From assembly GCA_014898415.1 (NCBI GenBank), contig RCTD01000002.1:1984001-2048000 (forward strand): a stretch of 64,000 nucleotides of DNA, read 5' to 3'. This document shows, piece after piece, positions 4,872-62,849 of this stretch. Position 1 is the first letter of the stretch, and every line of letters starts with the position of its first letter. This DNA is from Stromatinia cepivora (taxonomy: Eukaryota; Ascomycota; Leotiomycetes; Helotiales; Sclerotiniaceae). The position numbers were made by a program, and so were the translations under genes. A model generated the notes under the pieces. The model searched no databases. It was not told the origin of the DNA and saw only the letters and a program-made list of their open reading frames with translations.

Positions 4872-7540
4872 CTCCCCCCAGCTCACTCCCTCCATAATAC
4901 CCCTCAGATCTTATTCAAATCTATTCCCCAAGCCTCATGTTCACGGCATCTTCTGCAACCCGTGTCACTTACCCAAATGCACAGACTTCCGAAAAGCTTG
5001 GGGTAAATTTGAAAACTCATCCATACTTCCCATTTGCCAAAAAGGATATTAAAACAAAATACTTTCACCCATTTGAGTCATGATGGTATATATACGGAGT
5101 ATTTCATTTCCGGAAAAAGGGACAGTGCTTCGGTACTTTAGATAACCCCCATTACATTATTTATTAGGTACATATAAATGTCTCAGTCTCTTAGAAGATG
5201 TTGGCTCAAAGGAGAGGAGGATGTGTTGTCAGCTGGCCATAATAGAAAGAAGGTTTCCGCGGACAAATTCATGCGAAAGGTATGCGCAGTGTGCATCATC
5301 AGTACTTACTACCACCAGTACCAAATCTGTATATAGTATTCGGAGCGTTTGTAGAAACATGGCCGAAACATTAGGAACGAACCCCCAAGCCCATTGACAT
5401 TCTAATCTCATACCAATGCAGTACAAAATGGAATGGATGCTTGCTTAGCACGTTATTGCGAATGTAGCTCGACCGGCTCAAGTGTTTAGCGTGTCTAGCA
5501 TGTCTAGCATGAATCCAATTGGTTTTTAGAGTATTAGAATCCCATTAGCCCTTTATCGCAAATTGATGGGGGCGGCTTTGTCACTATCGGACCTCCAAGG
5601 CTTAGGTTTTAGTTACAATGCAACCTAGTTATTCTGCACGCCATTAATCCACAACCCTAAGCATGACAGCAGGCCCCGCATATCTCCACCAAAGAGGTGC
5701 TGGAGGCTGGAGCAGTCTGAGCAAAAAATAATACAGTAGCCGGTGTGATTTGATTTACAAACCACTGATGATTCAATGAGAGGGGGACCATCTACTAAGT
5801 GAAATACTAGGTAATCTTCTTACCACACCAGCACTGTGCACCTCCCTTCATACACGAAGAACCGGCATTTTCCCTGGATTGGGATTTGAAACAAGTATGG
5901 AGAGTCAGGTTCGGAAAATATACCATAGTGATGCTGCCCGCGGATGCAAAAGGAAGGTACCGTTTGAGGCACAGGAGATTAATGCTTTGGAGGATATATA
6001 TTTATATATCAAGATGCTACTTAAGATACATAGACGGAGTACATATGACAGTACATATAACAGTGCAGTCAGAGAATCACAGTAGAGCTGCGTCCTGGTC
6101 TTTCATTGGTGGACGGCAATTGAAAATCTAGGGCTGTGCCAATCTTCAAAGAGAAGCCAAAACCACTTGCCTCATTAAATTACGCACATATCGCCATACT
6201 CTAAATTTCACGGCGGTTATCACCCATCCTCAACCAATTAAATATCGAAGTTTAAACCTTTCATCATAACGGACCTTTTCAGCTCAACCTTAAGTGAGGC
6301 TCTAAACAAGGTCTCATGATGAAGAATACTAGGATTACACCTAGAATGCACATGCTCCAATCAATTGAATGTATTCAATGGAGCAATCAGAACTTCCTCG
6401 CTGCCATGAATGAAATGTTAGATCCACCCATATGCATGCAACGTTATTCTTAGTTACCTACACAATCTTCAACCATGAAAATGTCCTCGAGATATCTGTG
6501 CTGCAATAATTTCTCCAGCCTTGTCCTTCACAACCAATCAGTCTTGCTATCATTATTTATTCCATCATGATTCTATGTGTCTCGTGTTCATACTTCTTGC
6601 TATACATAGAAAGACGCATCTCTGTATAACCTCAAAAAAGTCATGCATTCCCATTTCCATTTAAACCAATACGAATCCCCCCCCCCCTATATTCTCGTCA
6701 TACCCATTCAACGCCCACCAACCCAAAATCCATCGTAGCACCGCCACAACATCTTTACATCATGCAATGAATCCCCATTCCCTACACATCCATCACCACC
6801 CCATAACCACCCTAATCCCACCCCACAACTACCGATTCGCCAACCCAGACCCAACCCCCCCCCAAATCAGCCCGCTCAAACGTACCACAAACCACCATTC
6901 CACAAACCCCATAACCCCGAAAAGAGACATGCAACAAAACCTCTCCCATTGAATCCATTGAATCCATTCATTCCTTCCCACAACACGAATCGAGGATACA
7001 ACATAAGAAACAAACATAATTTACTCACAATACACGGCATCCTGAATCCTAATCTCGAATCCCATCTCACAAAGTTCGTTGCACGGCAGTAGCTTGTATT
7101 CCCTACCCCTTTTTCAGGTGCTCTGGTTATCGACGTACAGATAGATGCGGGAAATTCGTTTGTTCGTACGGATATCCACATCCACATCCCATATCCATAC
7201 CTCATAAATACATGCAGCCAGAATTCCGGAACTGCCAGCACGATATCCGATTTATTGGGACGCGTCAACGTTGCGCATACCAATTGAAATATCAAGACAG
7301 TCGATTCTTTAATGATTCAACTAATTAAAAGCCAAATTATCTATTATTCAAATCCATAAAATATATAGAATAATCTCCTATATCTCCTACATCTCTTCAT
7401 TCTAAATACTAAATACCATAGAGTATCATTGCACACAACGCCTAATCATTCCTCAAACCATTCCTCACACCGATATATAGCTAACTTCAACATATATTCT
7501 CCCCTCGTCATATCATCTTAACAATCGCCATCACATCAAG

Positions 7541-7618
7541 ATCAAGACTCAAGATCAAGACTCAAAATCAAGACTCAAAATCAAGACTCAAAATCAAGAC
7601 TCAAAATCAAGACTCAAA
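7541..7618. repeat. 13-bp tandem repeat, six copies
   Basis: Six head-to-tail copies of ATCAAGACTCAAA. The first copy ends in G, and the others are identical. There are no unique spacers, so this is a minisatellite and not a CRISPR-like array. Confidence 0.95.
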
Positions 7619-7792
7619 AGTTCAAAAGCCCAAAACACACTAACCACGCAACCCCCCCTCACCCCCCCGCCCCCCCCAAAAAACCAAAATATCCTCCCCA
7701 TCCTCTCCATCCCCCCAGCCTCCCAATCTCCACCCACTCCATAAACCATCCACCGCACAAACACCTCTCGCTAAAATTGATTTCAATTTCAA

Positions 7793-7862
7793 TCTCCATC
7801 TCCATCTCCATCTCCATCTCCATCTCCATCTCCATCTCCATCTCCATCTCCATCTCCATCTC
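7793..7862. repeat. (CTCCAT)n hexanucleotide repeat
   Basis: About 11.5 perfect copies of CTCCAT. On the minus strand it reads as an alternating Met-Glu frame, which is a product of the repeat and not a gene. Confidence 0.95.
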
Positions 7863-8379
7863 GATTCATTCATGTACATACCCGTAATCTCAATATCTCA
7901 CGCGTATATCCACAATCCACAATCCACAACCCTCTACCCATCCACCTATGCTATCCCATTCTATCCATGCTATCCCATCCCATCCACGCCATCCTACACC
8001 ACATCCCTACTCAGCCGTGACCCTGACCTAGTCTGTTGAACCTATACCCACTCCTCTCGGTATATACCGACGGAGTCTCGCATCAGATATCGGATGCGTA
8101 CCGGCAGTGGTTGGTGATTTTATGTAAGATTACCTCGTATAAATTCTCATAGTACGAATGTAATTATCATTCATGCAAATATTTCCCTTGTGCAAGTAAC
8201 GTGTAAATCACGCAATGAAAACTGTACTGGCGGAATCAATCAGTGTTCAAGTGAGTAGGAGAATTTCATGTATACTTAAATTCATGTCTGTCTCATGGTG
8301 CATTCCATAGGTATACATAGGTAGAGCATGTACAGACCATTCGACTAATATCTTCTACTCAATCAGAAGAGCCTATCCA

Positions 8380-11300
8380 TTAATCCTCCCTCGCACTGAC
8401 TTCATCAAAAACAGCTTCTGCCTCCTCCCTCATCCTAACTCCATGATCTCCTGCCACCAATCCCAAAGCTCTATCTCTAGATGGTTTCTCCGCACTACTA
8501 TTGTTCTTGCGCCTCTCTCCAGACTGGCTTCGTGGCAATTTTCCCCGTCCCTTTTCTCTCATCTTAGCTACCTCTTCCAGGCTACTTTTCCATGACCCGT
8601 CACCACCATCACCATCACCAAATCCAAATCCCCTTTCAAAATTTCCTTCCTTGCCTTCATCTTTACTTATCTTGGTCATTTGTAACCTTCTAATATCTCC
8701 CCTCCTCTTCTGAGCAGTCTGCCTTGCAACATGCGCCAAGCTGTTTACACCAAGTCCATCCAATGCACTGAGATCCGTGAGTAGTTTTCTGACCTTGTAC
8801 CCTGTGATTTCTTCAATGAATTTGTCAAGTCCCTCTTCACAAGCTGCTGCAGTAGCGACCCTCAACCCCCTGAACATCTTCTTTGTATCTCTTTCTTGTC
8901 GGGTCTGTTTTTCCAACGATTTAAGTTGATTTTGTAAATCGTCGACTGATTCAGAAACTGATAGTTTAGGATTGATATCCAATAAGATAGGGATATCAGG
9001 TAGCTTTGCATAAGAAAGAACTTGGCCTTGAACGTAGCCAGGTCTTGTTGATTGACTTGACTGAGTAGCTTGGATGGGCATTGGTATGGAGGTAGCATTT
9101 GATTGTGGTGGCGGTACTCGATCCGCTATCGACCTTCTTTTGACCGGATCAGGAAGCGGTGCTGATAGTTGTTCTGATGTTGATATTCCTCCACTTTTAC
9201 GAACATCAGATTGACGAGTAAAACATTCTTCATCGGCTGATACATCCGGTTCTTTTTCTTTCTCCTTCAAACCAATGCCCGTTCTCCTCATTTCGTCATG
9301 TTCATGCAACGGAACATCCCTTTCCATGTGGTGCTTGGGAGATTGACTTGTCATGGTCTTTGTACTCTTGTCTAAATTAGTCATAGGTAGATTACACCCC
9401 TCACAATGTACTGCTTCAGGAATCTCACACATTCGCATATTTTTCTTCTTCGAAGTTGGTCTAAATCCAATGGACGGACTCGGCATCGATGCCATATTTG
9501 CACGGACTTTTGACTCCGGGATGGTATTTAACTCTACGTTACACTGGGTACAACGAAGTGGGGATTGAGGAATGCAGGACGACGCCATAGTGGAAGCAGC
9601 GCGTGAAATTTGATGTGGAGGTGCAGGCTCGGAGATACTGACTGTCTTTGCTTCTTGGGGTAGTTGTCGTCTTCGAGTGTCGCCGATTAAAGAAGATTTA
9701 AGAACAAGACCTCGACGTTGTTGACTTTGAACAGTAACGGGAATTTGAGTAGTGAAATGTGGAGCTCGGGTAATGAATGATGGGGCAGCACTTGTCTGAG
9801 TGGCATGATTTTTGAGCAGACGTGTATCTTTTTGTGCTATAGCGTCCTCAATGGTAAGCACAGCACGAGTTTGGTTGGGAAGTGGCTCTAGGCTGGCGAA
9901 ATCTGCCACCCCAATATTATCACCTTCTTCGGGACCAACGAATGAATGTGAATAAATAGTTGTAGCTGATGGTATGGGAATGTCAGACGACGTGGTACTA
10001 GTAGGAGTTCGAGGAATCTGATCTGGGATAGAACGGGTGTGCTCCGGTGGAGTATCGAGATGCAATACTATAGAAGAAGACTGTGAGTTTGGCTGACTCG
10101 TGAATTCTGAGTACGGAGGTGATGCAGCAGCGTCTCCAGCCAACTTGCTCAATCTAGCGTGTTTTATAGCAGTGCCAGACTCAGGAGCAGGCTCGGCTGT
10201 GGTTGGTGGCTTACGAAGCCAAGGTAAGGATTTTTTGGCAGGAGACCTCGTACGTTCAGGTGAGACAACGGAGTCCGAACGATATACCTTTCCAGGCGAC
10301 GGTGCCCGCGGATGTGCCAGATCGCAACACGGTGGAGACTCAAGACCACTGGTTGGATCGCCCCGCTCATATGCTGGTGTCCACTCAATGACAGTTTCTT
10401 CTGACGCAATACTCATTGCCGAGATTTCTCTTTCCGGTTTTGCACGGTCAGATACTGATTTCTTGAGCAGAACATTTGAGCCCTTGATCCCCATTTCGTC
10501 GTCTGGTAGAGTAGCTTGTGTTGGCTCTTCAATATCAGAGAGAGACCTTCTTCGGTCAATTTCAGATTCTGCTAGCAGCCCGGCACTGCTGTGCTCGTAT
10601 GGCACTGGCTGAACTTCCGGAACGGTACTTCTACGCTCGTATGGCTGGACGCCCAAAACCGATCGGTTCCGTTGTTCTGCCGATGTCACCGCTAATCCAA
10701 CAGCTTGAAACTCGGCGTGATAAGGTTTGAACTCTTTTATAGTCTCTATCGTTTGCGTGGAAAAACTTGTTGAGGGTGCAGATGAGATAGGCGTTTGCTT
10801 TGGGGCCTGCTTCGCGGTTTGAAGATATAACTCAAGTTCCCTAGTGAAACGTTTCAAAGCTCTTCTTTGACTAGGACTACGAGAAGGACTCGAAGCAATA
10901 CTTTGCACAATAGAATGAACAGAAGGAGAGAATGATTTCCCCTGAGCAAGACTTGCAAGTCTCGATGCTCCAATAAATGCTGTATTACCTGTTGAGATCT
11001 CTTTTTTAGAAGGATCGCGTGATATAGATATCTCTGCCTGGGCAACGTTGTGACGAGTGGAATTCTGCTCTTCATAAAGACTTGCAAGTGTAGATGCGGC
11101 CAAGAAAGCTTTACTTCTAGCTGGAGAGGCAAAACCAGTACGTGTGGATGGATTATACTTCCTATACAAGCTCTTGGAATAAACACGATTGTCTTGTGGT
11201 GCAGTCGTTTCAGGATTCGCTTGATAGCGACGGACTTGATCTGGGGCTGCTCCGGTCAATTTTCTCGAATTAATGGAGTTGGTTCGACTTCCAGCTTGAG

Positions 11301-11772: not shown

Positions 11773-11959
11773 TATTAACTATAAGAATAGAACTTTGAAG
11801 AATGCATATTTTAGGAAATGTGAGGTCTTCGAGATTGAAGGGACTGAGAAATTAAGGGAGCTTCTCGATGTGCACCGCTCCTGCCCTCTCAAATTAAGGC
11901 TTCGCACATGATCCACCAATCTGGAAGATAAAACGCTCCCATCACCCATATGGGTCCCC

Positions 11960-12321
11960 TCACCGAATATCTTTGATACCGGGTGAAGAATACATATCGA
12001 CCTGCCGCTGACCTTTTCGCAGAAGGTACTCAATCGCACTGAAATCTTTCTTATCTAGATTCATACTCTTATCGAATTCGAGTCTGGAAGTACCAAGAAT
12101 GTTAGCAAGGTTTGCACAAGGAAGCAGGAAATGGTAATTGTTCAATACTCGACGTACCTCGCAAATGCTTCAAAATGCTTCCTCGACTCCTTCATCTAGT
12201 TAATAGCTTACTTTGAATCCTCATAGGAAACACCACTCACAGCCGGTTTTTTTCTACTTTCTCTCAAACATTTTCTATAAAGAGCGAGGACCTCCCTCTG
12301 AAGTCCCGATAATTTCGCCAT
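11960..12321 (-). CDS. sdh6: Succinate dehydrogenase assembly factor 1 (LYR-motif protein)
   Basis: Small mitochondrial LYR protein of the SDHAF1/Sdh6 family, which helps insert iron-sulfur clusters into the Sdh2 subunit of respiratory complex II. Three exons are inferred: 12241-12321, 12158-12189 and 11960-12083, giving 78 residues. The N terminus MAKLSGLQREVLALYRKCLR carries the LYR-type motif (here ALYRKCLR). The conserved blocks KHFEAFAR, KKDFSAIEYLLRKGQRQ and the C-terminal MYSSPGIKDIR all match the fungal family in order. The first 3' splice site has close alternatives (AG at 12198 or 12190). I chose the one that restores the family spacing between RKKP and HFEAFAR. Length is normal for the family. 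Confidence 0.9.
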
Positions 12322-12836
12322 TTTTCCTTCGTTATTTATTGACTGTTGGTGAGTGAGGATGTACAAACAGAAACAAGAGAAAATAATCGATGATGCAGTG
12401 AGATTTGGTGATGCAGGGGTGAGCTCCGAGGTGGGGGATTATATAAGCTGTCTCGGGCATCTTAAACCACCTCAAGCCTTTCCGGGGATTGAGGATATAA
12501 ATCTAGATTATTATTATTGATGATTCGTTGTGCAGAATAAATGGGAATAGTGATGATTCAACCACTAAATTGTATGGGAATGCTATATATTCACTCACAA
12601 TTATAAGATCATTCTCTCTCTATTTTTGCCAGTGTAGAGCCTCTGTAGCAGTGTAGCTCTATGGTACACAACACGGAATACTACACTTCAGGACTAATAA
12701 TCAACAATAACTGCGCTGCCTCCATCTCGTCCTCGAACTCCATACACCAAGGAAGAACTTCAGAAACCCCGTCAGGCTTTGGTCTTCGTTCAGTGGCAGC
12801 CAAGGACAACGAACCAGATACAGTAAAGCTACCTTC
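12322..12836 (+). other. Promoter side of SDHAF1 and unassigned sequence
   Basis: The left part must hold the promoter of the SDHAF1 gene. From about 12660 there is a short open frame whose translation has no family resemblance. It may be degenerate upstream sequence of the acid phosphatase fragment, but I could not align it. Confidence 0.4.
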
Positions 12837-13106
12837 ATGGCTCGCCAAAACATAGATACCTCACCACTTTCAGAACGGTCCAAACTGGACGCATACTATG
12901 TACGCATTCGATATGACGGCATGCCGGTCACAATTCCCGGCTGTAAAGCCTGCGGTAAACATCTTAGGGGCGGTGAAAGCTTCTGTACATTGGAGGCATT
13001 CAAAGAAATCGTCGAAAAGTTGACCCCTGCGGACTGGAAGAAGAATTGCTGGAGCAACTTGAATGGTCCTAAATTTCCAAGCATGCCTGAACCGACTGGG
13101 TATTGA
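12837..13106 (+). pseudogene. 3' fragment of a histidine acid phosphatase gene
   Basis: The frame of 89 codons reads like the extreme C terminus of a fungal histidine acid phosphatase (phytase/acid phosphatase clan, normally about 450-550 residues, usually secreted). It has YYVRIRYDGMPVTIPGC, then a Cys-containing segment GESFCTLEAFKEIV, then ending FPSMPEPTGY. The catalytic RHGxRxP and HD motifs would lie well upstream and are absent from the adjacent sequence in all plus frames I read. This is therefore a truncated relic, probably a duplication or recombination remnant, and not a functional enzyme. An undetected intron plus very divergent 5' exons would be the alternative, but no matching exon is visible. 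Confidence 0.65.
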
Positions 13107-13693
13107 TTTCGATATGTATTGTGTCAGCGGCCTAGTACCACACACGATGAGCTGTACATGAACAGACTCAATACACATCAAATAATTTTAAGAATCATGG
13201 TTTCTACGTGATATAAAAGCATGATGGTGAGCTTGAATGTCGAATCTGGGTTCACATTCAGTGGTCTTTGTATTCCTGGTCTGGGCCCATGAAGCGAGTA
13301 TGGAAAATGGTGGATCGGGAGGGATTTTTGATTGCAGAACTAAGTTTTTATTTGTTCGAGATTTTGGTATTGATGGATAAGTGATGTGTTGCTAACTTTC
13401 GAGTGCCTTGCTGGGCGAATGAAGATACCAGGGGAGGGACGTAGAAAAAAGGAGGTGAGAGAGAAAGTTCACAGAAGTCTAAAGCAAACGAATACCAGTA
13501 TGGTTATCCCGAACTAAGTCAATATGCTCCAGTGTTTACAAGTTTCAATCTCGGATAATCCAAATTCGGCAGAAATCCTTCCGCCCATCATATGGTGGAC
13601 ACTGGTAAAATTTTCGGAGGCTATTCGCAAGTGGATTTTGGAGAGGCAAACAACAAGAGGCAATTGAAGCAAAGCAGAAATACTAACTAAGCT
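13107..13693. other. Spacer between acid phosphatase relic and gasdermin gene
   Basis: About 590 bp with no open frame of note and no recognisable repeat. It holds the 3' ends of two converging genes. Confidence 0.6.
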
Positions 13694-14391
13694 TTAGAAA
13701 AACGTCTTCTCCGTCCTCATTGACTCCGGACAAAACCTGATCTCCACCACACGATAGACAAACACATAATCAGAGCCGCTGTCAAACTTCACTTCTCTAT
13801 TTTTTGTATTGCTAATTTCAATCTGTGGCCCACCAGACACCGGTACACCCGTTAACACTGCCGCATCTAAGCCAAAATTTAACATTCCCCCATACCCATT
13901 GACCGCTTCAGTCGTGACTGACGCACTTCGCCCTATCTTGACGCCCGTGACCATGTAAATGGGCTTTTTGAATCCGGTTGCCGATATATAAGCCATGACA
14001 CCCTCTGCTTTCAGACTTTCCCAATATATTCCACATCGGGCTGAAAGTACTTTTCCTCCAGTCGATGAAACGTGTAGATAGGTATCATCTCTTGGTTGTG
14101 ATGCGATCCCGTGCTGACATCGGCTCCAATTCCAAGGACCATCTGAAGGAAGCTCGCCCACAATGTGATTTTTTTGTGTTTTGCAGACCTGACAAATTTT
14201 TCCCCATTTTCCTTGAACGATTCTTGCAGGTCCGCTACGGATACCGGCACAAATTGGTTGTTTCGGTGGTTAAGAGACTTCTGAGGAGCATCCGGATGGA
14301 CGATGATGCTCCTCAAAGCAATGAGTCCATCAGATGGGAAATCACAGTTAAATGCTAGGAAACATGTAGGCTTGAAAGGTATAGAAGCCAT
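13694..14391 (-). pseudogene. Fungal gasdermin-like cell-death protein (RCD-1/HET-Q1 family), frameshifted
   Basis: The conceptual product resembles fungal gasdermins, which are pore-forming executors of heterokaryon-incompatibility cell death, activated in known cases by proteolysis or allelic co-expression. The N-terminal frame starts MASIPFKPTCFLAFNCDFPS and contains the typical DGLIALRSIIVHP block. The downstream frame contains KKPIYMVTGVKIGR, a Gly-rich stretch, and YVFVYRVVEIRF, all in family order. The two parts are in different frames. The first ends at a stop at 14011-14013, and the change of frame falls in or near a run of three G (14020-14022 on this strand), fitting loss of one base. 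Combined length is about 230 codons against roughly 250 in the family. No plausible intron rescues it without removing conserved residues. A sequencing error is possible. The family call is from pattern memory, not a search. Confidence 0.72.
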
Positions 14392-14717
14392 GGTGCCCGA
14401 TGTAGCTAGGCTGGTGATTTCTTTCGTGTAAACCCACTTGTGAATACTAAACTCGATCTATACAATCTCAGTTATCAAACCCATCTAAATTCACTTGCAT
14501 GTAGCTTTTAATAGACCGAAATTATGGTCTATTTATTGAGAAGTGAATGGTAAATTGATATATAAATAGAACTCACTAAACTCAGGAGTGGCACCCACCG
14601 AGATTTAATGCACGTATGACAACGATTTTATATTTCAATCGAACTTCAGTTAAGGTTCGAGCCTCGACAACTATACAATCTTCAACGATCATCATAATTT
14701 CCTACTACTGGGTAAAT
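14392..14717. other. Divergent intergenic region
   Basis: Head-to-head spacer of about 325 bp between the gasdermin start and the kinase-like relic, so both promoters should be here. It is AT-rich with tatataaat near 14560. Nothing else is recognisable. Confidence 0.45.
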
Positions 14718-16075
14718 ATGGTTCACCCAGACTTGGAATGGCAAACTGCTCAGAAAGTAGTCGAGGTTGCTCTCCAAGATACAAACTATGGCTGTGATGA
14801 CCCTAAGAGACTTCCTGGCAGTTTTATCAACTTTGCCTTTCGAAACACACTTTCAATTCTAATTGAGGGACAACAAACGGTTATAGTAAAAATAACGGAA
14901 GGAAAGCTGAAGATAGAGAAAACAACGGGAGAGGCATTTACTTTGCACAAGACTCGTAGTGTAAGCATGGTTATCAAACGCTCAATTCAATCACTGTTGT
15001 TCTATTTATTGTCATTTTTAGTTATTACTATTTCATCCATCCCTATATTTTTATCTTTTGATTGATGCGGGATTTAATTCATTTAGTACTATGAACATCA
15101 TGTGCTTACACAACCTCCACCATCTTTCTTTACCGAACGAGAGGATAATGTCTCTCCTTTAATTCTAGTCCGAGTTCCAAAAGTATTTGATTACTTCCCT
15201 AACGATTACATCCACATTATGGGAGATCCCCAACACTATGACGCTAAAATCACACCTCCTCCAGAAGGCTTTCACTTCTCTTTGCAGCAGCATGCGGAAG
15301 GGCTGTAGGTGCATGTATCGCAAAGTTCCATACTTGGGGTAGCCACTCAGATCAAGGAGGCCCGCGAGAAGTGCTCAGTGAGTACAAGAAAGCGGGTTTA
15401 TTCAAGTATCGGCTATCTTGTGGACGACTGGATGCGACGATAGACAAATTTCCTGGGATGCTTGGGGACAATAGACTTCTATTCAAGAGTGTGAACGATC
15501 GTATCATGACTTTCGCGCAAGAAGGAAGTGGTATCATTCACGGAGACTTCTGGCCCGGAAAATAATCATACCCTAGAACTAACCACTCAGCTTCTTTTCT
15601 AATTTGGCTACTCTAATCTGGTATTTTCGAGTTACAACAAAAGCCTACGATTCAGCTGATGAACATCGATGTTCAAGGGGACAACAAGCGAGTGATCTTT
15701 GTTCTTGATTGGGAACTTTGTCATCTTTCATCTATTGTGGTTGATCTAGGTACTATACTTGCTGAATTATATTGTATCTATTTCTTCGAAGATTCGCCAT
15801 TAGTCCCAATCATTCTTGATTCCTCCTTGAAAGCATATGGGCCAATTGAGATACGGGATGCTCTAGATACGATGCTATACTGCGGTGTTTATCTCATTAT
15901 CTGGCCATGTCGTACAGAATGGTCTGAGCATCTGAAGTTAAAAGAATGTATTCAATTTGGTTGTAATATCTATACAAATGCCAGTGATGGCAATGTGGAT
16001 TGGTTTAGGAAAGGGTTGTTTTGGGAATTGTTATCCTTGACAAATAATAATAGTGTTAGTGTTAGTGTTGGTTGA
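14718..16075 (+). pseudogene. Aminoglycoside phosphotransferase (APH)-like kinase, decayed
   Basis: Pieces of a fungal APH/choline-kinase-fold protein appear in order. The N terminus starts MVHPDLEWQTAQKVVEVAL and leads to the ATP-lobe segment QQTVIVKITEG. A likely intron follows from GTAAGC near 14960. Next come YEHHVL and VRVPKVFDYF, then ACGRAVGACIAKFHTWGS in a different frame, then the catalytic loop IIHGDFWPG, then VLDWELCHLSS with the metal-binding Asp. At least two breaks are visible: a frame change around 15262-15308, and a stop at 15563-15565 immediately after HGDFWPG where a conserved Asn should follow. The second may be a lost splice donor (ATAATC where GTAATC would work). Such kinases are abundant and poorly characterised in fungi; the substrate is unknown. 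Confidence 0.65.
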
Positions 16076-16899
16076 AAAGTTTGTTAATGAATCATTCAAT
16101 GATCTTGAAAGTAGATGAGGAAGTGTGTCAGGTAGCAAATTCTGTATATCTGTAGTAAATAGAGTTTTGTATTCTGGGTTGGGATATCTGAATTAGTTAA
16201 GGTTATTGAGAGAGACTCGAATTTTCAGCCGAGTAGGAGGACCTTTGACTTCAAATTGGCGGCTGAATGGATTCAAGCCCACAAATACGACTGGAATTGT
16301 TAAAAGTTGGGAATCAGGTTAAACATTGAAGATAATTAATGGCTGAATCCAGGTATTATATTGAAAGAATCTCAAGTCTTTAACTGAGATGGGAGCGGTC
16401 AAATATCTCAACTTGCAGGTTGGTTTGTGAGATGCAGTATTTTATGCTTGATATACTTCAATTGACCCAGTTGTTATATGCAGGGGTGATGTATTGATTG
16501 CTAATGCTAATAGATGTCAATTTTCCTTTTGTTCGGGAGTTTGGGCCGGCGAGGGTGGCTTTCCTTGAAATGATGATTTTGAGGATGGAAATTTTCAAGA
16601 GACTCAGAATAATGTATGCTGAGCACCTAGATAATCAAAGTGAATTTTAATATGTCAGTATGCTAGGTTAAGTGATATGATTGTTTGTAGATAGAATGAC
16701 AAATTACATGAGAGATAAATATGTGCTTTTCAAAAATATCAAAACCCAAGAACTACCCGGCAATCACATGCTCCTCAACTTCTCCAACATTATATCACAC
16801 AGGGTACGCTCATGCCTCCGATCATTCAATAGCGACCAAGGGAGGATGCAATTTTTTCCATCTCGACTCTCTGCCACTTCATGCCCGTCCAGGGTCCAA
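16076..16899. other. Spacer without recognised features
   Basis: About 820 bp of AT-rich sequence with no long open frame and no recognised homology. Part may be the lost 3' end of the protease relic to its right. Confidence 0.5.
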
Positions 16900-18130
16900 G
16901 GTTGAAAAACATATTGTAGGAAGATTGAAGAATAATGCAGGAACAAGAATGATTTTTGAGCTCATGGCAGTTTATGTTGCGCATATCCGAGCGCAAGGGC
17001 TGCTACCCCCGCAACGATAGGAGCGGCACATGATGTACCCGATGTTAAGACCTCAATACCGGCATTGAAGTGAGGTGGCCAGTAATAGGAGGACGGCTCC
17101 ACCTAAAATGCAGTAGTCTTGTGGTCGAGAATTGGGTGTGTGCGATGAATGGTAGCCATCCCCATGTAAAGAATAGATACATATCACTTGCTCTAAGTGT
17201 GCTGGTCACACTATGGAGTGTCGATTTCCAGAATTAGATGCAGCTGCAATGAGGATGACATTGTTCGCCGTGGCATGCGTCAGAGCGTCATCGATGATAG
17301 GGTGGAGTTCAGGGAAACCGAAGGACATGGTGATTATATCCACTTTCCGCACATCCGTAGTATATTCAATGGCGTGCAGTCACTTGCATATCAGTATTTT
17401 ATCTCTCAATGAATAGTCCATCGCGGATCTTCTACCTTGGTGATGATATCGGGATCAAGCTCTCCATTTTGTGTGATCCGCTCAATAAATACCTCTGAAT
17501 TAGGCGCCACTTTGAGCAGCAAGCCTGCCGCATGCGTACAATGTCCACTTGTACCGGCACGACTGGCATTGTCCCCCTTCAAACAGCTTCTATACGTAAA
17601 CAGATTTTCTTAGGCGGGGAGGATTTCGCTAGAAGATCAATTCCAGTGTCGAGGCTTGCTATCTTCACTCTGCACACTGGCCCTCCTTGTCAATGCGAGG
17701 AAAGGTATATGTTTGCAAATCTTGAAACCATCTTTCGGCCGGCACGGAGTCCGAAGCTGCCTTCTGGTCAATAGATGCGGGCTTTGCCGTTACAGAGCTC
17801 GATGCGACAAATTCGTTGAGCCAACATATTAAAGACTCGTATTACTTGAGTTGCGAGTTTTCAGAACAGATCTTGTAGCTGGCACTAATGAGTCTTTCTG
17901 CCCCCTGAGAGCCGAATCTAGATCGTTTGTTTGTATATCGTATGCCACCAAAATTGCCTGTAAAGGACCCACGATGTTAGCATGCAAACTTTGTTGTTTG
18001 GACTTCGTTACTAGAACCTTGATCAAAGATATCCTCAGGCTGGAGACAGGTCTGAATCGCTAGAGCATGTTTGGTAATAGCCTTTTTATAACTTTGCGTC
18101 TCTCCCAACAGCTGGTAGGCATTTAATAAG
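16900..18130 (-). pseudogene. Subtilisin-like (S8) serine protease relic
   Basis: Minus-strand fragments in several frames line up in the order of a fungal S8 protease with an N-terminal helical domain. They are: YKKAITKHALAIQTCLQPED with FDQGSSNEVQTTKF (about 17975-18127); the Asp region VKIASLDTGIDL (about 17640-17680); the His region SGHCTHAAGLLLKVAP (about 17500-17550), where the usual HGTH is HCTH; the core VDIITMSFGFPELHP then AAASNSGNR (about 17219-17340); and the Ser region GTSCAAPIVAGVAALAL (about 16995-17040). Frames are broken by stops between the Asp and His regions and after the oxyanion Asn. One interruption near 17420 resembles an intron lacking a clean frame. It is a relic unless the assembly is wrong. 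Proteases of this type cleave gasdermin in the P. anserina het-Q system, and the neighbouring gasdermin gene fits that pairing. Confidence 0.75.
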
Positions 18131-19290
18131 CATCGGGATTATGCATAGAGGTGAGGCATGACGAGTGGGCTCAGCGGCAGACATTAGCAGCCAGAGAGAA
18201 AATGTTAGGTCCGGAGCACCCAGAAACTCTAACAAGTGTAAACAGCCTTGCACAAGCCCTGTTCTCCCAAGGAAAGTATGAAGAAGCAGAAGAGGTATAT
18301 CGGTATGCATTGGTCGGGAGGGAAAGTACTAGGCTATGGGTACCTCGGTATGATAAAGAGTCTCAATAACTTAGATCAAGCTTTTGTTTGCCTAGGGCAG
18401 TTTAAAGTAGCCGAGGAACCGTTTCGGCGAGCACTGGCAGAGGGAGGGAAGACACTTGAACCTGAGCATCCTTATGTATTACAAAATATTCACAACCTAG
18501 GAGGAGCGCTTTGAAACCAAGGCCAGCATAGGAAAGCAGGGAACTATAACGAAAACTTCGGCAGGGAGGGAAAAGGTTCCAGGCCCAGACCACCCAGACA
18601 CGTTGCGAAGCGTTAATAACCTAGGGGGACATTTGAAGTAATGGGGCAGTACGAAGCAGCAGAGGAGTTATACCGCCAAGCATTAAAAGGATGGGTGCAG
18701 GTGTCGGGAGATGGGCACGCAGACACACTTCAAAGCGCCCACAACATAGGAGGTGCCCTTCGAAATCAAGGACAATATCAAAAGGCAGTGATTTTTGACC
18801 AGGAAGCGCTGATAGGCAGAGAAAAGACATTAGGACGAAACCACCCCAGTACATTGAGAAGTTTGAGCAATTTAGATTCAATGCCCGAAAAACAAGAAAA
18901 ATATATGGAGGCAAAGAATCTATATCAGCAAGCGTTGACTGCAAAAGAACAAATGTTAGGAAAGGAACATCCAGATATGCTTCAAAGCATTAACAACATT
19001 GGTGGTATCCGCTTGAACCAATTAGACTAGATTGGGACAGAGTCTTATTCATCGATAAGGATTAGAAGAAAGGAAAGGATTCTGGGACTAGATCACCATG
19101 ACACGCTGCAAAGTATAAGCAATTGGGAGAAGGCTCGAAAATTTGGACCGGCTTGAGGAAGCAGAGCCACTCTTCCGACAGGCCGTAGAAAGCAAGGAGA
19201 CGCTGTTGGGGCATGAACATTCCCATTCTCTGCGGGGTGTTGAGGATCTCGCCGGACTTGTTAGAAAGATCGACTGGAAGTGAGAATCAA
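18131..19290 (+). pseudogene. Decayed kinesin-light-chain-type TPR repeat array (NLR-like C terminus)
   Basis: About nine TPR units of roughly 42 residues recur at about 126-bp spacing, with the pattern RExxLGxEHPxTLxSxxNL...QGxYxEAExLYRxAL. Examples are REKMLGPEHPETLTSVNSLA, REKTLGRNHPSTLRSLSNL and KEQMLGKEHPDMLQSINNIG. Repeat frames start near 18191, 18317, 18443, 18565, 18691, 18816, 18939, 19070 and 19190. Reading is broken by frameshifts and stops (for example around 18510-18640 and after 19027). In fungi such arrays are mostly the C-terminal recognition part of STAND/NLR proteins. No nucleotide-binding domain lies upstream; the protease relic on the opposite strand occupies that place. 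It is therefore a truncated, dead fragment. The parent protein could also have been another TPR protein. Confidence 0.75.
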
Positions 19291-19797
19291 TCATTGCCAA
19301 TTGGGATGGACAAAGGAGTATGTAGATGATGATGGATTCGTGACGATACTATTTCATTCCAAAGTCTGAATAGAATTAATTCAAATTGAAATGTTATTGA
19401 TTGACACGAAGTCGCATAGAGGTGAAGAGCAGCTCTCTTATGGTGAGAGCTCTAATTTCGAATAAGTTTTAGCTTTCCTTGGCTATCGTAGTGCCAAAGG
19501 ACCGTTAAGAACTTCACGATGTTCTAATTCAATTTTGGTAATTCCAAATATTCTAAGAAAGACAGTATCTTTATATCCTCGTCAAATTAGATATACCAAT
19601 TCCTGCCACATCCTCTGTTGTCGTGTAGAGAGAAGGAAGGTATTTAGTAAGCAGGAGCTCCAGAAAGATGTGGCTGAAGGTGGGGAAATTGTTTACCTCG
19701 GAATTAATCTCGTCGGATATCCATCTTATCGCGAGAGTGAACTCCCATCTAGAATACCCTCATTCATTCAATTTACTTCGTTATCAATTGCTACACA
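19291..19797. other. Promoter side of the FAH-family gene
   Basis: About 500 bp with no supported gene. Short open frames on the plus strand near 19535-19800 overlap the true start region and show no family resemblance. Confidence 0.5.
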
Positions 19798-20951
19798 ATG
19801 TCGTCGCCTTCATTCTCCGTAAGTCCAATTCAATCAATACCACCACATTCGCGGGTACAGGGTCATTAGTTATGCAATGCTAATGCTCCTCTAGCGACTT
19901 GTCCGCTTCCTGGCCAAAAACGGGCGCACATACTACGGCGATGCCATTCTACCCAAAGGAGTATCAGATATCGCGAAAGCTACACAAGCCAAAGTGATTA
20001 CAGGTGAAATATTTGGAAAACATGAGGTTACAGATCAAATACAAGATATCCGACTCTTACTTGCTCCATTAGCAACAGAGGATGTCAAGACTGTGAGATG
20101 TTTGGGGTTGAACTATGAACAGCACGCGAAGGAGGTAAGCATTTATGAATATGAATATTGGATGAAATGAAACAAAGATGGAAAATTGATTTCAAGCTGG
20201 GTACTTTCTAGTCAAATATGCCGATTCCAAAATTCCCAATTCTGTTTGTAAGTCCATGTTTTCCGTATCCCCGAAATTTCAATAATAATTAACATCCCAA
20301 AGTACAAACCCATCACATCACTCTCTGGTCCCACCGATCCCATTCCCATCCCCCTGATGGCTCAAGAAGGTACCGGTCTTGACTACGAATGCGAGCTTGT
20401 AGTGGTGATCGGGAAATCCTGCACCAATGTCCCCGAATCCAAAGCTTTAGATTATGTTCTTGGTTATGCCGTGGGCGACGATGTATCGCATCGAGAATGG
20501 CAGATTCAACGAGGAGGCGGTCAATGGGCTCTCGGAAAGGGATTTGATGGATGGGCTCCGTATGGCCCGGGAATTGTCTCTAGTCAATTGATTGATCCGC
20601 AAAATCTTAAGATCTTTACGAAATTGAATGGGAAGACGGTTCAGGAGAGTAGTACGAAGGATATGATTTTTGGTGTAGCAAAAACTATTGCCTTCTTGAG
20701 TCAGGGAACTACATTATTACCAGGAGATTTAATTTTTACAGGAACGTGAGTTTTTGTGGATCATTTCCCCGTTATGATTATTGGATTTGAAAAGATGCTA
20801 ATATATGAATAGTCCACAAGGTGTAGGAATGGGGAGAAAGCCACAGGTATGGTTGAAGGATGGTGATGTGGTTGAAGTTGGGCTAGAAGGGGTAGGAAGT
20901 TGTATTAATAAGGTTGAGTTTACTCAGACAAAGGAGAAGGCGAAGCTATAA
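19798..20951 (+). CDS. Fumarylacetoacetate hydrolase (FAH) family protein
   Basis: Predicted metal-dependent enzyme of the FAH/FAHD superfamily, whose members hydrolyse or isomerise or decarboxylate small 2-oxo and acylpyruvate-type acids. Five exons are inferred: 19798-19818, 19895-20134, 20212-20247, 20303-20745 and 20813-20951, giving 292 residues. The short first exon encodes MSSPSFS. Conserved blocks are VRCLGLNYEQHAKE, the metal-site segment GLDYECELVVVIGK, then GYAVGDDVSHREWQ, GFDGWAPYGPGIV, and PGDLIFTGTPQGVGMGRKP near the C terminus. Length and order match FAHD2-type proteins of about 290-310 residues. All introns have GT and AG ends. The exact substrate cannot be told from sequence, and no pathway partner lies next to it. 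Confidence 0.92.
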
Positions 20952-22548
20952 AGTTTCTAGACGCTGAAATATATGGGATATGGATATCTATTGCAATAAT
21001 TTCAAACATACAACAAATTTCATCCCATAGTCATGCCCTTGGCACAGCATAATGTTCAGGCTGGGTTCATAGTGAGTTTAAGCAGTTGGAGTGTGAGGGT
21101 AGGAGATGATTTATGGAGAGGATTGATGGGGGTGGTGATTTGAATAGGGTCGATTTTGAGTTGTATGTTCATAGGAGTATTCATTGGGCATCCATATCTT
21201 TCTCTATCTCGATCTATTGACGCACATATTGCGGTTCCATCAATTAAATAATGCAGTACAAAAAGCCATTTTAAGCAGTCAATAGTAATCCCCAATATCG
21301 ATCTTATATCAGCTTTCCAAAAGGTAATTGAGGATGAGAGAAGTTCTGTTTCTTACAGCATCAGTGATGCCGCAGATCACCCATCAAGAATACTTAGATA
21401 TAAGTACTGAGTCTTAACAGCAATATCAGACAAAATTATTCCAAATCTTAACTTACTCTGCATCCTTCCATAGTGCAGGACTTATGATATGTGCAAGGCG
21501 AATACTCCAATCCCTAATGATCTATTGACAACTCTGTCTGATATTAACTTTACAATATATAGCATTTCAGCTGCAATATGGAAAGTCCTCGTCCAATCTA
21601 TCCAGTAAGTTTCATTACCTTGACTTCTTTGAATATATTCTATACTATTCCATTTCTACTCATGATATAGATATATAGAGTAAGGCTTTGTATAAATAAA
21701 CTTAAGACATTCAGACCTAATTAGATATTATATATAAATCCTGATAAATTCGACCATCCATCCCAATCACATCCCAATCACATCACATTTCATCTCATCT
21801 CATCTCAATCCATCTATCACATCCATCCATAAAAATTATTTTCCGACTCGGAGAAATCGCTATATGATCATATCCCCTGCACATCTAACATCTAACATCT
21901 TCAGCTAACATCTTCAGCTAACTCGCTTCAGGCATACATAAAGATATTAATCACATCACGTCTCACCTCACCAACGAAATAATCCGCAACACCCCCACGC
22001 AAATCCAAATCCCACTAGGTATCCAACCCTACCGCCCCTCCAAATCCTAGATAATCTCCTACTTATCTAGATCCTACAAAAAAGCAATCCTCCCAAATCC
22101 CAAATCGCAAATCGCGTCCCAGCACAATGGGTACGTGCAGATAGCCGTTCCAATTTCCAACTTACAGAGTAAAACAAAAAAAAGCAAACATATCGAGAAA
22201 CCTCGGCGATCAAGATTATCAATTCTCCATCTCACATGCATGAATCGCTCTCAAATCTCAAGAGTGATGAAAAAGATAGATTGGAAAAATCGGCTCGTTT
22301 GCTTAATATATATATACATATGTATGATGATGGTATACCTAGATATGTACGGAGTACATACCATGCATGATATGATTTTTTTTATCTGGACTCTGGACTC
22401 ACGAAACGCCCATAAAAAAAGCAAAATGAATAGAAGAAATCTAACTTTACCCAGATCAAGGGTACGGGCCGAACCCCTGATTCTGACCTTCCTTCAGCGT
22501 GCCTCATTCCTGGGATTTCATTCCTGGGACCTGGTACTGGATGAGATT

Positions 22549-25608: not shown

Positions 25609-28368
25609 TTATTCCGAACAGCAGAATAGCCCCTGCTGAAAATTCCCGATAATGAGTTTCTCCATATCAATAACCCGATACGGCTTCGCTAAGAAACTTT
25701 GCATGCCTGCTTCCTTTGCCCTCATCGAACAGTCATCTGTGATATCAGCTGTAACCGCCACAATCGTCGCCGTTTGCCCATGAGCCTCCGCCAATTTCAT
25801 GATCTCTCTTGTAGCTTGGTAACCATCCATATTCGGCATCCATATATCCATCAATATAATATCATAGCGACCCGATGACTTTGATAAGGAGGCTTGGTAA
25901 GAACGTACGGCGTCTGCACCATCAAATGCAAGCGTAATGTTATCTGAACCGTAGCCAAGTCGACTGAGAGCTGTAAAAGCGAATTTTCGATTGATTATGT
26001 TATCTTCTGCAACAAGGAAATTGAGGGGGTATTCTTTGGCAAGGTTGGCGTTGGGAGTTGCTCGTCGGCGTGGAGTTTTTATTGGAACCGTTGTGTAAGG
26101 AGATATAACGGCATCCCTAGTAATTCGAGGGTGACTAGGCGATGAGCCCACTAGTGGAGTTACGGACCTTTTCATATCCAGAGCTGATATCGGGAGACGT
26201 ATCAGGAATTCAGACCCTTTAAACGGACCTTCTGTTGCGGATCTTTCCAACGTAACATCGCCACCGAGATTCTTCCTAACATGAGCTTTAGCATTGAATA
26301 AACTAAGTCCTAGTCCATCTTTCGGTCGACTGATCGATGCGTTCTCTTGGAAGTGAGGTTGAAATAGACGTGATTTTGATTCTTCGGTAATGCCGCATCC
26401 TGTATCAACCACCCATATCTCAACCATATGCCCAGTATTATTAAGTTTGACCGTTATTGTGATCCTGCCACCATCCGTAAACTTGATTGCATTATCGATT
26501 ATTTTTGAAATTGAGAATTGCAAATGCTGCTCTTCAGTAAGAATGGCCTCCGGAACATCGGGCTGGATCACCAATTCAATTAAACACTCTTGCATTTCAC
26601 CCCTTGACCCTTGTGTTTTCACTTCAATTATCTCACCAAATTCCGTCATGGTATGGTGCTCGCTAGATGGATAATCGCTTTTGAGAGCATCACTAATAAG
26701 ATTTCGCATGAAATCACGGGTGATGATACGTTGATGTCCTGAGTTCATGGAAGCCGGCGAAGTAAGTGGACTGGGTTTTGAGGCGAAAGGAAAGCCATCT
26801 GACTCCATCTGTACGTCTGAAGTCATTGTGACTGTGGACCGAATAATCGTCTCGGGGCTTGAACTTGGCGTACAAACCATTGTGGAATCGACATCGAATA
26901 AATGATGTGACATTTCTCGCTCGGACAAAGTGAACGTTCGTTTTGGAGGAGATCCTAAATTGAGCTCGAGGTCTTCAGAACGATTTCGCTTGTTTAGAAT
27001 TGGAGATGAAAATGCCTCCCGTAGATGGCCATCAGTAGACGGGCAATAACTTGATGTGAGTGCAAAAGATTTCTTTCCATCATCTTCAGGTGTTAAAGGA
27101 ACATCGGGCATTTGCATATTGAGATCGTATGCATGGACGACATTATCGGCAGCTTCTATCGCCCTTCTAGAGCTTTCTGTGTAAGATCAGCATCAAATAG
27201 GTAACCATAACAATGGGGTTTACTTACCTTGCACAATCTCGATATTGGCCTTAAGATCTGCAAAAACAGATCGAGCCCGCTCATCCTGTTGCTTTGCGAT
27301 AGCATCAAGTACAGTTGAGTACATGATATCTAGCATCCCTACCACCCCTTGCATAGGTGTCCTTAGCTCGTGGGATAGGCTTCGGGCATATGGTTTAAGT
27401 GACTGCGAAGCGGTGATAGCAGAGAGAGGTATGATCTGTGCTGGAAGGGACTCTGAGAAGTTAGCCTCTTTAGCGAAGCCGTGCCCCTCCATTATGCGCT
27501 GGAGGATCATGTCTTCAAGAGAATGCATGAACATTTCTATGAAGCTCCAACTGAGCGTCCTTCTTTGAGCACCCTCTTCGGACCATATCAATGCAAAGTG
27601 AGCAAAAGATTTGTCTCCCACGGATAATGGCACACCAATAAAGGCCTCCGGTTGATTGCATGGCATTATGTTTGGATTATTAGGTGTTACCTCCTTCATT
27701 CTCTCGGGTACAATGACCACTTTGTCATATTTCATATAAGCGCAAGGTGTACCAAAGGCTGTATACTTATAATCTCTTTCAAGTTTAGGTTCCTGATCCC
27801 CACATTTGGTGTAGAAAGCAACACCCATTAAACTTGAGCCTTCTTCCCCAAGTTCTGGAAGTTCACCAGCGGTATCCTGATCATCCACCAACATTCGTTT
27901 AGCAACCAATCCGCATTGAGCTCCTGTTATATCGCACATTTCCTCCATCAATACTCTCCAGAAGTCGTAGGTGTCGGCCTTGCGAAGCTGAGATTTCAAC
28001 TTAACCAGTCGTTCCGAAGCATTGCTTTCCGCGGCAGCAGGAAAGTATCGACCCAATATATTTGTAAAGCCTTCATCACTGCTATGCAGTATGGAATCGT
28101 CTGTGAAGTCTGGCAAGCACAATGTTTGTCTGTCTATAAGATCGTGTGGTGCTTGCATCCCTGATCCCATTACACCTGTCATTTCCTCCCCAGTCCTCTC
28201 AAGGAATTGATCTTTTATCGGAGCCCAAGTAGGTATTCGTCTAATTCTTTGACGGTGGGGTTTGTATATCCTCGAAGCACAAGGCTTTCCCTCAAAGCCC
28301 TCACGACGATATCGTGGCACTTGCATTCCAATTTCTTGTTTAGTTGTGGGTATGAGTGCATTAAGCAT
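25609..28368 (-). CDS. Hybrid histidine kinase (HisKA-HATPase-REC)
   Basis: Fungal hybrid sensor kinase, which autophosphorylates on His and passes phosphate to its own receiver Asp and then to a Ypd1-type phosphotransfer protein. Two exons, 27228-28368 and 25609-27176, with one 51-nt intron, give 902 residues. An N-terminal region of about 330 residues resembles a GAF-like sensor (for example EAFIGVPLSVGDKSFAHFAL) with no membrane segment. The H box is SLSHELRTPMQGVVGML with His333. After an insert of about 150 low-complexity residues come the N box IIDNAIKF (about 606-613), the VVDTGCGI box and DGLGLSLFNAK. The receiver has EDN near 771 and the phospho-acceptor Asp824 in ILMDIWMPNMDGY, with VAVTAD and the Lys in FLAKPY also present. 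It is cytoplasmic. I cannot place the fungal HHK group with certainty. The start codon is the first in frame and could be wrong. Confidence 0.92.
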
Positions 28369-37072: not shown

Positions 37073-38886
37073 GTGGTTATGGATTCTTCTTTGGATCAAC
37101 GGGGTGGGGCGGATCTTGATGATTTGTCTTCTTCAACTGCTTCCGAACCTTCTCTATTAGCTCATACGTCTATCGCTGCAGCTATCTATCCTCTTGCGAA
37201 AGAAAGCATCTCGCTGAGCTTGGCCTCCCTTTGCCGCAAAGTCCCAAAATCGCATCAAATTCAATTCGAAGAATTGATATTTGAACTAGGCGCATTGGAT
37301 CTCTCCTTACACGGCTTGGTGCAAGAGGAGAAATGGCATCCAAGACTGTTCTTGAGCCATTGGTCGGAAAATGCAGAACTGAGTTGGAGAGTGTGAAAGA
37401 TATCCTAATCAGGCTTGACAATATAAAGGAAGGAGAGACTAGAATCTTCAAATGCCAGGAGATGGACTTGCTTAGAGAGAAAATTTGTGTGTCCGCCGAG
37501 CATTGTTGTTATTTGGATATGGGGTTGCGATGGTTCAAAGTTTTTGGGTATGTTTCGTTGTTTGTTCGTGTTTTTGTTTTTTTTTTCTGGGATAAAACGA
37601 AATTATCATCATATCATACTGATTCTCATAGAAACGTTAAGGATATGGGCAAGGAACCTTATCAACCGGATGCGAAAAACTGGAATCTGAATGGGTTGCC
37701 AGGTATAACGACTGGGTTGGAAAAGGCCTACAAAGATCTTGACCCAGTTGGTTACAGACAATATCATATCTTAGTGGATGGTCAAGAAGAGGGACATAAT
37801 TCATCAGTGAATAAATGCGATGAGGAAAATGTTGAGAATTTGGGAGAGACTGCTGATTTATCTATCGCTGTTGAGTCTTCTGAGGTTATAGCTAAGTCTC
37901 AAAGTACATATTCTCTTGCGTCTGCACAAACTGTTGTTGATGAAACGCATTGTATAGACTGGGGAAAAGAAAAGGAAAAGGAAAAGCAAGTTCACTACGA
38001 AACATGGGCTCTTCAGCATGTACCTGCTCACAAAGAGATACATTGGTGGAGATGTATTTTTTTCAACATGAAGTTATGGCGTGGAGTAACTTGCTATTTC
38101 GAGAGCTGGTTACTTCAGCCGTTGGGATCACATCCTACCGAGATTGTGGGAATTAGACAAAGATTCAAGGATGCGACCAGAAGAAAAGAACACGGTTGTG
38201 GCATCGGGATGGAAATTTAAGCGGAGGAGAAAGTGGAGAGGAAAATGCAAGAGGATTATTTGAAGGGCATTGTGAAGATACTGGGAGAACAAGCCCAGGA
38301 GAGAATTTTGTGTCTCTGTAGAACGAGGGAGAGATATACGAGTAATGAGGATTTGAAGACGGAATGGAGGCTAGAAGCGATTGAGGCGAGGGAACCAAGG
38401 GGATTGTTTGATAGAGAGAGATGGATGGGGTTGGAAGATAGTTTGGAGATTAAGAGGGGATTGGAGGTTGGGAGGAGGAAGTGGTGGAGACGGGCGAGGG
38501 ACTTTGCAGGGAGAGAGTGGTGGAGGGAAGGGGAGAAAGTGGAGTGGTGGAGGAAGGCGGAGAAGGTGGAGTGGGTGGTTGTGATTAAGGGGGTGGAAGT
38601 TGATCGTTTGAAAAGGATCACGCCGGTTTTGGTTAATGGTTCTTGGGATGAAGATGAGGGGAAGGAGAGCGTGAGTCAGGAGGTGAAGAAAAATTTGGGA
38701 CGTGAGGAGAACAAGAATATGGATCAAGAGCTGACGAAAGGAACTGCGGATCAGGAAAAGAAAGATACGAAGGGAAAGGTGACTATGGGGAAGAAAGAGG
38801 CACGGAGAGGAATGGAGATCTTGGCGGAAAGATTGTATGTTGGAGGAAATGGTGATGAGAAGAGAGAAAGTTTGGGTGGGACATAG
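37073..38886 (+). pseudogene. Unrecognised protein gene with two interruptions
   Basis: I do not recognise this family. Three coding-like blocks follow one another. 37073-37320 encodes a helical segment after MVMDSSLDQRGG, with AIYPLAKESISLSLASLC and ELIFELGALDLSLHGLV. From about 37333 the pattern of amphipathic helices continues in another frame (LEPLVGKCRTELESVKDILI), so a frameshift near 37320-37345 is likely. A plausible intron of 81 nt (GTATGT near 37548 to TCATAG at 37631) keeps frame. The frame then runs to a single TAA at 38218-38220 and reopens in the same frame to 38886 as a highly charged, Trp/Arg/Glu/Lys-rich segment. The N-terminal half recalls helical fungal N-terminal domains of NLR-like proteins, but that is only an impression. 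An unrecognised intron could remove the TAA. Confidence 0.45.
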
Positions 38887-56079: not shown

Positions 56080-56361
56080 TGTCACGAATCGTGAACCACA
56101 GGAGGCTAACCACGTGATACTTCTTATCTCCCATGTCCATTGATAAACTGATCGTCTGTGTATATACGTTACGATTCATATGATTTAGTATAGTAAAATA
56201 GTGACCCTAATAATATATATATATAATTCCGCAGCTTACAAATGGGTATTTGTATATATATATCTAATCGCTCCTTATAAATTATAATTCTTCAGTTATA
56301 GATTCTAAAAAATATAATTGATCCTATTTATTCAATTCTATTACGACTTTTGTACGTTATA
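56080..56361 (+). repeat. 5' LTR
   Basis: 282 bp starting TGTCACGAATCG and ending GTACGTTATA. It aligns end to end with the 3' LTR, and the differences I read are almost all C/T or G/A. The terminal CA is mutated to TA. Confidence 0.92.
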
Positions 56362-60560: not shown

Positions 60561-60593
60561 TATCCAAACGAAACAACAATTATTAGTATCGAT

Positions 60594-62846: not shown

Positions 62847-62849
62847 GTA

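Follow-up and report, generated by a model that had tools for sequence, protein, structure and literature searches.

Several described systems come close to the locus analyzed here. In Podospora anserina, HET-Q2 removes a tail of about 5 kDa from the gasdermin HET-Q1, and one review presents the two as idiomorphs, i.e., different genes at one locus (PMC12881547). In the account of the same review, the RCD-1-1/RCD-1-2 system of Neurospora crassa is triggered when two allelic gasdermins meet and not by cleavage; the review also describes gasdermin-linked proteases fused to kinase-like or repeat domains (PMC12881547). A second review puts about 80% of fungal gasdermin genes in a cluster with a protease gene and about 63% in a cluster with an S8 protease gene (PMC10197012). 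The logic of a short-tailed gasdermin with a linked protease, which our locus shares, is also outlined for bacterial gasdermins (PMC10197012, PMC12881547). The locus in question lies at 13694-19290 of a stretch of 64,000 nucleotides of the fungus Stromatinia cepivora (contig RCTD01000002.1, positions 1,984,001 to 2,048,000; hereafter the window) and contains the decayed genes of a gasdermin and of a protease with a DUF7580 and an S8 domain (DUF7580-S8).

We consider it very probable that this locus preserves, in fossil form, a fungal pyroptosis-like module of two genes, a gasdermin and a DUF7580-S8 protease, which is dead in this genome. The family membership of both genes, their linkage, their lesions and the lack of any other match in the genome directly support this explanation. 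Four genes were recognized between 13.69 and 19.28 kb, in the order gasdermin, kinase-like relic, S8 relic and TPR array. The gasdermin and S8 genes are on the minus strand, the kinase and TPR genes on the plus strand, and all four are broken. A sequence-only reading of the region had named a gasdermin-like gene, an S8 relic with Asp, His, Asn and Ser regions and a TPR array, all in a broken state, and each of these assignments is borne out below, with frame changes, stops and lost segments among the gasdermin, S8 and TPR genes.

The relative proteins found by sequence search are designated by P-numbers (e.g., P0002, P0013). The locus resembles HET-Q1/HET-Q2 in the gasdermin family (a profile of 45 sequences matches 9uv9 with an E-value of 7.8e-20), in the presence of an S8 protease and in the short C-terminal tail of the intact gasdermin relatives, but it differs in that both genes lie on one haplotype, both dead, and in that the protease is of the DUF7580-S8 type. 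The intact relatives match RCD-1 best, both by profile and by fold, whereas a protease gene is linked here and relatives such as P0002 extend about 70 residues past the pore domain. With the Q2L proteins, i.e., protease receptors that are linked to gasdermins and carry TPR, ANK, WD40 or kinase-like domains, the locus shares an S8 domain behind an N-terminal domain and a gene near a gasdermin gene, yet the protease in the window is truncated and broken.

The gasdermin relic

The gasdermin is found in two open frames of the minus strand (14011-14457 and 13694-14269). Using tblastn, its relatives match 14391-14023 and 14020-13733 in two frames, with E-values down to 1.5e-78. Three parts can be recognized:

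14023..14391, minus strand: pore-forming domain, part 1, beginning around the start codon and ending at the frame change (67% identity to P0002 residues 1-121; own-genome search with P0002, E 3e-46)
13733..14020, minus strand: pore-forming domain, part 2, in another frame (74% identity to P0002 residues 123-218; own-genome E 1.9e-38)
13686..13745, minus strand: final residues of the C-terminal tail, read in a third frame (tblastn with tail queries of relatives)

Judged by these similarities, the relic is a fungal gasdermin of the RCD-1/HET-Q1 family. Since Pfam-A gives no family for the two window pieces, this identity rests on the profile of the relatives, which matches the RCD-1 and HET-Q1 structures over the pore domain; the six gasdermin relatives scanned against Pfam-A also show nothing above any cut-off. 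A structure model of P0002 has a usable core with a gasdermin pore-domain fold. The underlying 45-sequence alignment excludes P0062 (517 amino acids, Cudoniella), which has an unrelated N-terminal half, and the fragment P0012. Foldseek and VIA-align give RCD-1 as the best fold match of the intact relatives, and HET-Q1 is not among the matches shown, though the profile finds it.

The gene carries two lesions. The first is a frame change near 14.02 kb within the pore domain, which is thereby split over two frames and leaves the relic without an open reading frame. The second is the loss of about 50 residues, comprising the linker and most of the tail, so that the tail end adjoins the pore-domain end near 13.73 kb. 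Of the short tail present in intact relatives, only the last residues are left in the window, out of frame with the pore domain. Nine of 11 tail queries match 13686-13745 in a 1150-base target (P0012 with an E-value of 2.9e-4, P0005 with 0.006, P0002 and P0008 with 0.009, and the other five with 0.034-0.55); P0001 and P0003 gave no match there.

Identity comparisons covered eight of the 46 gasdermin relatives and eight of the 40 S8 relatives. The gasdermin pieces are 58-71% identical to seven of the eight gasdermin relatives and 40% identical to the eighth. Their best identity to any relative is 70.6%, while intact relatives reach 75.7-92.2%. Among positions invariant in 10 relatives, 15 out of 88 are altered in the window; when each of the 10 was compared with the other nine as a control, 0 to 10 of 88-98 positions were altered (P0006 and P0012 were excluded as incomplete and gapped columns were skipped). 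At 71% identity, the relic is about as close to P0002 as P0057 is to three other relatives (68-75%), so the gasdermin probably died recently relative to the age of the family.

Named close members of this gasdermin subfamily come from Acephala macrosclerotiorum and Halenospora varia. Gasdermin and protease together have named relatives in Acephala, Halenospora, Phialocephala, Mollisia and Hyaloscypha, all of them Helotiales, and more distantly in other fungi. No gasdermin relatives were found in the plasmid records, viral contigs or prokaryotic genome contigs searched.

The protease relic and the adjoining TPR array

The S8 relic extends from 18129 to 16770 on the minus strand. Read through its frame changes, it matches DUF7580-S8 and S8 proteins with E-values down to 2.2e-57. 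This search, in which the 7,998 candidates sharing most words were scored, yielded 40 proteins with an E-value of at most 0.001. The first 18 have E-values of 2.5e-24 or below, seven of them with fungal names, and the remaining 22 are S8 proteins with weaker matches, including bacterial ones. Domains listed for the 40 proteins include DUF7580 alone in seven cases and DUF7580 with S8 in P0027. A domain scan revealed DUF7580 above the cut-off followed by the start of an S8 domain below the cut-off in P0013, P0015, P0016, P0017, P0018 and P0019, DUF7580 only in P0026, and both domains above the cut-off in P0027. A literature search on DUF7580 found nothing. The following parts were assigned:

17833..18129, minus strand: DUF7580 end and linker remnant, in two frames (aligned with P0013 starting at its residue 246; identity at 66 of 99 residues)
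17633..17671, minus strand: S8 catalytic Asp region (84.6% identity over 13 residues to P0014, P0020 and P0025)
17448..17546, minus strand: S8 catalytic His region, GHCTH vs GHGTH in relatives (23 of 33 residues identical to P0013)
17385..17447, minus strand: probable intron of the S8 gene, placed by eye (gene calls likewise end here in P0013, P0015 and P0018)
17101..17376, minus strand: S8 region with the Asn and one in-frame stop inside (P0020 residues 141-237, 40%; PF00082 16.4 bits on 17206-17379, below cut-off)
16965..17081, minus strand: S8 catalytic Ser region, TSGTSCAAPIVAGVAAL (P0020 residues 244-280, 53%; PF00082 17.8 bits at 16974-17045, below cut-off)
16770..16964, minus strand: S8 C-terminal end, weak (the P0021 match reaches 16773, the P0022 match 16770)

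The four motif regions are thus in sequence, Asp near 17.65 kb, His near 17.53 kb, Asn at about 17.2-17.3 kb and Ser near 17.03 kb, with the frame changing along the way; the Asn is the one we take to be the oxyanion Asn of S8. The His motif carries a Cys where GHGTH has its second Gly. Five stretches that can be read in 18129-17448 share 50-68% identity with eight DUF7580-type relatives, six of which fall between 60 and 68%. Single pieces are weak by comparison with the Pfam S8 cut-off of 21.8 bits, as only one of the three given to Pfam matches S8 at all, and the Ser region also stays below it. Of the profile matches that the sequence-only reading pointed to, TPR is thus obtained above the cut-off and S8 below it on single pieces, while Pfam-A is blank for the gasdermin, which is matched via the profile of its relatives.

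DUF7580 comprises residues 2-305 of P0013, and homology of the window to P0013 starts only at residue 245-246. By this alignment, the protease relic lacks its N-terminal half, with about 245 residues lost. A hand count that leaves out the probable intron gives at least five frame changes and two in-frame stops in what remains. It is hardly conceivable that these breaks are sequencing or assembly errors in intact genes. In the gasdermin pore domain, two long open pieces are separated by just one frame change, which would fit such an error, but losses of about 50 and about 245 residues, in-frame stops and changes at 15 of 88 invariant positions are not indel noise, and nearby open frames of 1132, 503, 525 and 1279 amino acids are uninterrupted.

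Within about 50 bases of the point where the DUF7580-S8 homology ends, a TPR array starts on the other strand:

18130..18177, no strand assigned: head-to-head junction of the S8 and TPR genes, each truncated at its 5' end (P0013 homology from residue 245-246; TPR_12 homology from about 18175)
18178..19283, plus strand: TPR array with several frame breaks (TPR_10 on pieces)

TPR_10 matches 18130-18369 (E 9e-12), 18620-19030 (E 8.3e-27) and 19119-19283 (E 8.9e-7), and the piece 18242-18514 scores at most 20.3 bits, below the cut-off. From their arrangement, S8 and TPR seem to be two separate truncated genes on opposite strands that have both lost their 5' parts, and this head-to-head loss would be accounted for by one deletion that spanned an upstream region common to both.

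The neighboring S8 and TPR sequences could also derive from one NOD-like receptor (NLR) with an S8 domain and a TPR array that was broken by an inversion, which we regard as very unlikely. The two are adjacent here, P0025 is a fusion of TPR and S8, and two of the four TPR frames scanned elsewhere in the genome, with 25-30% identity to the window array, look NLR-like. The first has an NPHP3_N and a winged-helix match above the cut-off; the second has NACHT-associated matches below the cut-off and appears, from contig, strand and frame length, to be the same frame as one with an NB-ARC match of 35.7 bits. The third has SH3 and Myb matches and the fourth only TPR, so that the four point to no single parent type for the window array. 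However, the S8 relic continues upstream into DUF7580 and not into TPR, no TPR was found in the DUF7580-type relatives scanned, and the TPR array is on the opposite strand. Of the nine NB-ARC matches listed across the genome, none falls in the window; in that search only the best candidates were scored, the 5' part of the TPR gene is lost, and no family search was made for NACHT. The sequence-only reading had joined gasdermin, protease and TPR array into one module. A gasdermin and an S8 protease of the published fungal kind, both dead, remain of it, whereas the TPR array as an NLR part is not supported, being an opposite-strand remnant without an NB-ARC match listed in the window.

Linkage of gasdermin and protease and their surroundings

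On their shared strand, about 2.4 kb separate the end of the S8 relic from the start of the gasdermin, and with S8 at 16.77-18.13 kb and the gasdermin at 13.69-14.39 kb, both are inside the 10 kb distance used for linked proteases. In addition, the contig listed for P0057 (gasdermin, 288 amino acids) and the contig listed for P0018 (DUF7580-S8, 492 amino acids) both measure exactly 12,117 bases and have the same source, which is the only exact contig-size match between the 46 gasdermin and 40 S8 relatives. P0057 is 74.5% identical to P0002 and P0018 is 77.0% identical to P0013, a parallel divergence as expected for genes of one genome. P0057 and P0018 appear to share a contig and are perhaps an intact pair in another fungus; this evidence is circumstantial but favors a conserved pair.

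Searches of the own genome covered 55.67 Mb in 48 contigs (the window being on contig C2); in the protein and family searches, only the best candidates were scored and introns were ignored, which limits their sensitivity. The DNA of 13690-19290 matches only itself (very common words were skipped), and gasdermin queries (the window piece, P0002, P0063 and P0087) find this locus only. DUF7580 has six matches elsewhere, one of them below the cut-off, and S8 has 14 matched stretches elsewhere, with no coincidence of the two among the listed coordinates. The PF24476 family search did not list the short remnant at 17833-18129 itself. Other S8 genes of the genome resemble the relic at the motif level only, mainly in the Ser region. 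Within this sensitivity, neither an intact gasdermin nor an intact DUF7580-S8 gene was found in the genome.

A third relic is located between the two genes:

14718..16075, plus strand: kinase-like relic (4-hydroxytryptamine kinase/APH type) with broken frames (PDB match of the right piece; left part joined by eye)

Its piece 15617-16075 matches the 4-hydroxytryptamine kinase entries 8zic_A and 9eto_A with an E-value of about 2e-5 (2.3e-5). The match to PF01636 is below the cut-off (E 0.12), and the three left pieces have no Pfam match.

Several observations weigh against a two-gene module. The S8 part is below the cut-off in the six nearest DUF7580-type relatives, which end at the presumed intron, and absent in P0026, so that both domains exceed it only in P0027. 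A rough simulation gave some exact contig-size match by chance in 7% of draws, and one of at least 10 kb in 0.35%. A first structure model from 11 sequences had a pLDDT of only 30.8, and the excess of altered invariant positions in the gasdermin is partly divergence. Moreover, the kinase-like relic separates the gasdermin and S8 genes, and seven of the eight DUF7580-type relatives (P0013, P0015, P0016, P0017, P0019, P0026 and P0027) share no contig size with a gasdermin relative. These last two points would also suit chance neighbors, i.e., an SDHAF1-FAH interval that is a gene graveyard, in which pseudogenes of a gasdermin and of an unrelated S8 protease came to lie by accident beside the kinase and TPR relics: where all four genes at 13.69-19.28 kb are broken, two of them need not belong to a module. 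We rate this explanation as distinctly improbable, since the S8 relic is of the DUF7580-S8 type, of which P0018 shares contig size and source with P0057, and since the linkage of gasdermins and proteases has a high prior in the review literature (PMC10197012).

The naming of the flanks as SDHAF1 and FAH is consistent with two features, on the SDHAF1 side only to the level of the LYR family:

11960-12438, left flank: LYR-family pieces (E 2.5e-5 and 8e-5, both just below the Pfam cut-off)
20252-20749, right flank: FAA hydrolase piece (E 1.6e-48)

Repeat-induced point mutation (RIP) was considered as a cause of the decay and rejected by comparison of the composite RIP index with neighboring genes. 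The index is -0.74 for the gasdermin, -0.83 for S8 and -0.48 for both TPR and kinase, with -0.61 to -0.81 in four neighboring gene stretches and -0.28 in an AT-rich block. No direct repeats of at least 18 bases were found within 11800-21000, and a single 18-base inverted pair there looks like chance. A histidine acid phosphatase C-terminal end at 12856-13106 on the plus strand, suspected by eye, received no support from Pfam and PDB sequence searches. A literature search combining gasdermin with Helotiales gave nothing related, judged by title.

Elsewhere in the window, the AT-rich block (55001-63000) has a GC content of 0.25-0.34 per kb and contains a reverse transcriptase domain at 59235-60062 (PF00078, E 5.6e-19). 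Near it, the open frame 52794-53789 on the minus strand encodes a SAD/SRA domain (E 2.4e-29). Two adjacent open frames at 25609-28368 on the minus strand probably represent a hybrid histidine kinase with HisKA (below the cut-off), HATPase and response regulator. Local GC skew is strong at 6001-9000 (-0.27 to -0.59) and at 38001-39000 (+0.57).

The proposed module and its loss

In the living ancestor, the DUF7580-S8 protein would have been sensor and protease in one, with an N-terminal half that restrained the protease. On activation, the S8 domain would have cut the gasdermin linker and released the short inhibitory tail, and the freed pore domain would have assembled in the fungus's own plasma membrane, leading to cell death. 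The restraint by the N-terminal half, the cleavage of the gasdermin and the killing of the cell are inferred, as is the order of loss. In the present genome, both genes are disabled, by the frame change in the pore domain and the loss of the linker and most of the tail of the gasdermin, and by the lost N-terminal half, stops and frame changes of the protease. A pore domain that still worked should become free once the tail is gone and kill its carrier, so the pore domain was probably inactivated earlier than the tail was lost, or simultaneously. Allorecognition is one published role of such modules and may be regarded as a possibility for this locus.

One review proposes that rearrangement can give a constitutively active sensor, a pseudogenization route to incompatibility genes (PMC10197012). 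The locus could be a fossil of this route, which we consider unlikely: the sensor half would have been cut off, leaving an unrestrained protease, and the gasdermin would then have been lost too, because a haplotype with such a protease survives only without its gasdermin, with the protease decaying later. This later decay makes the route hard to tell from plain loss. The same proposal, together with a loss that removes the N-terminal sensor half and leaves four S8 motif regions readable, would also accommodate a truncated but working gasdermin or protease remnant with a new role. There is scarcely any probability left for such a remnant, given at least five frame changes and two stops in the protease and a gasdermin pore domain in two frames.

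The two-gene module links the DUF7580-S8 protease type to one gasdermin subfamily. The genome, in which no intact gasdermin or DUF7580-S8 gene was found, would serve as a natural null, i.e., a clean background to ask whether such a module acts in strain recognition or in defense. If the pseudogenization route was followed, other strains would carry an intact pair in the SDHAF1-FAH interval, and the intermediate haplotype, with a truncated working protease and no gasdermin, would be their incompatible partner. If other strains do keep the pair, the SDHAF1-FAH interval would become a candidate for an incompatibility locus, open to immediate genotyping.

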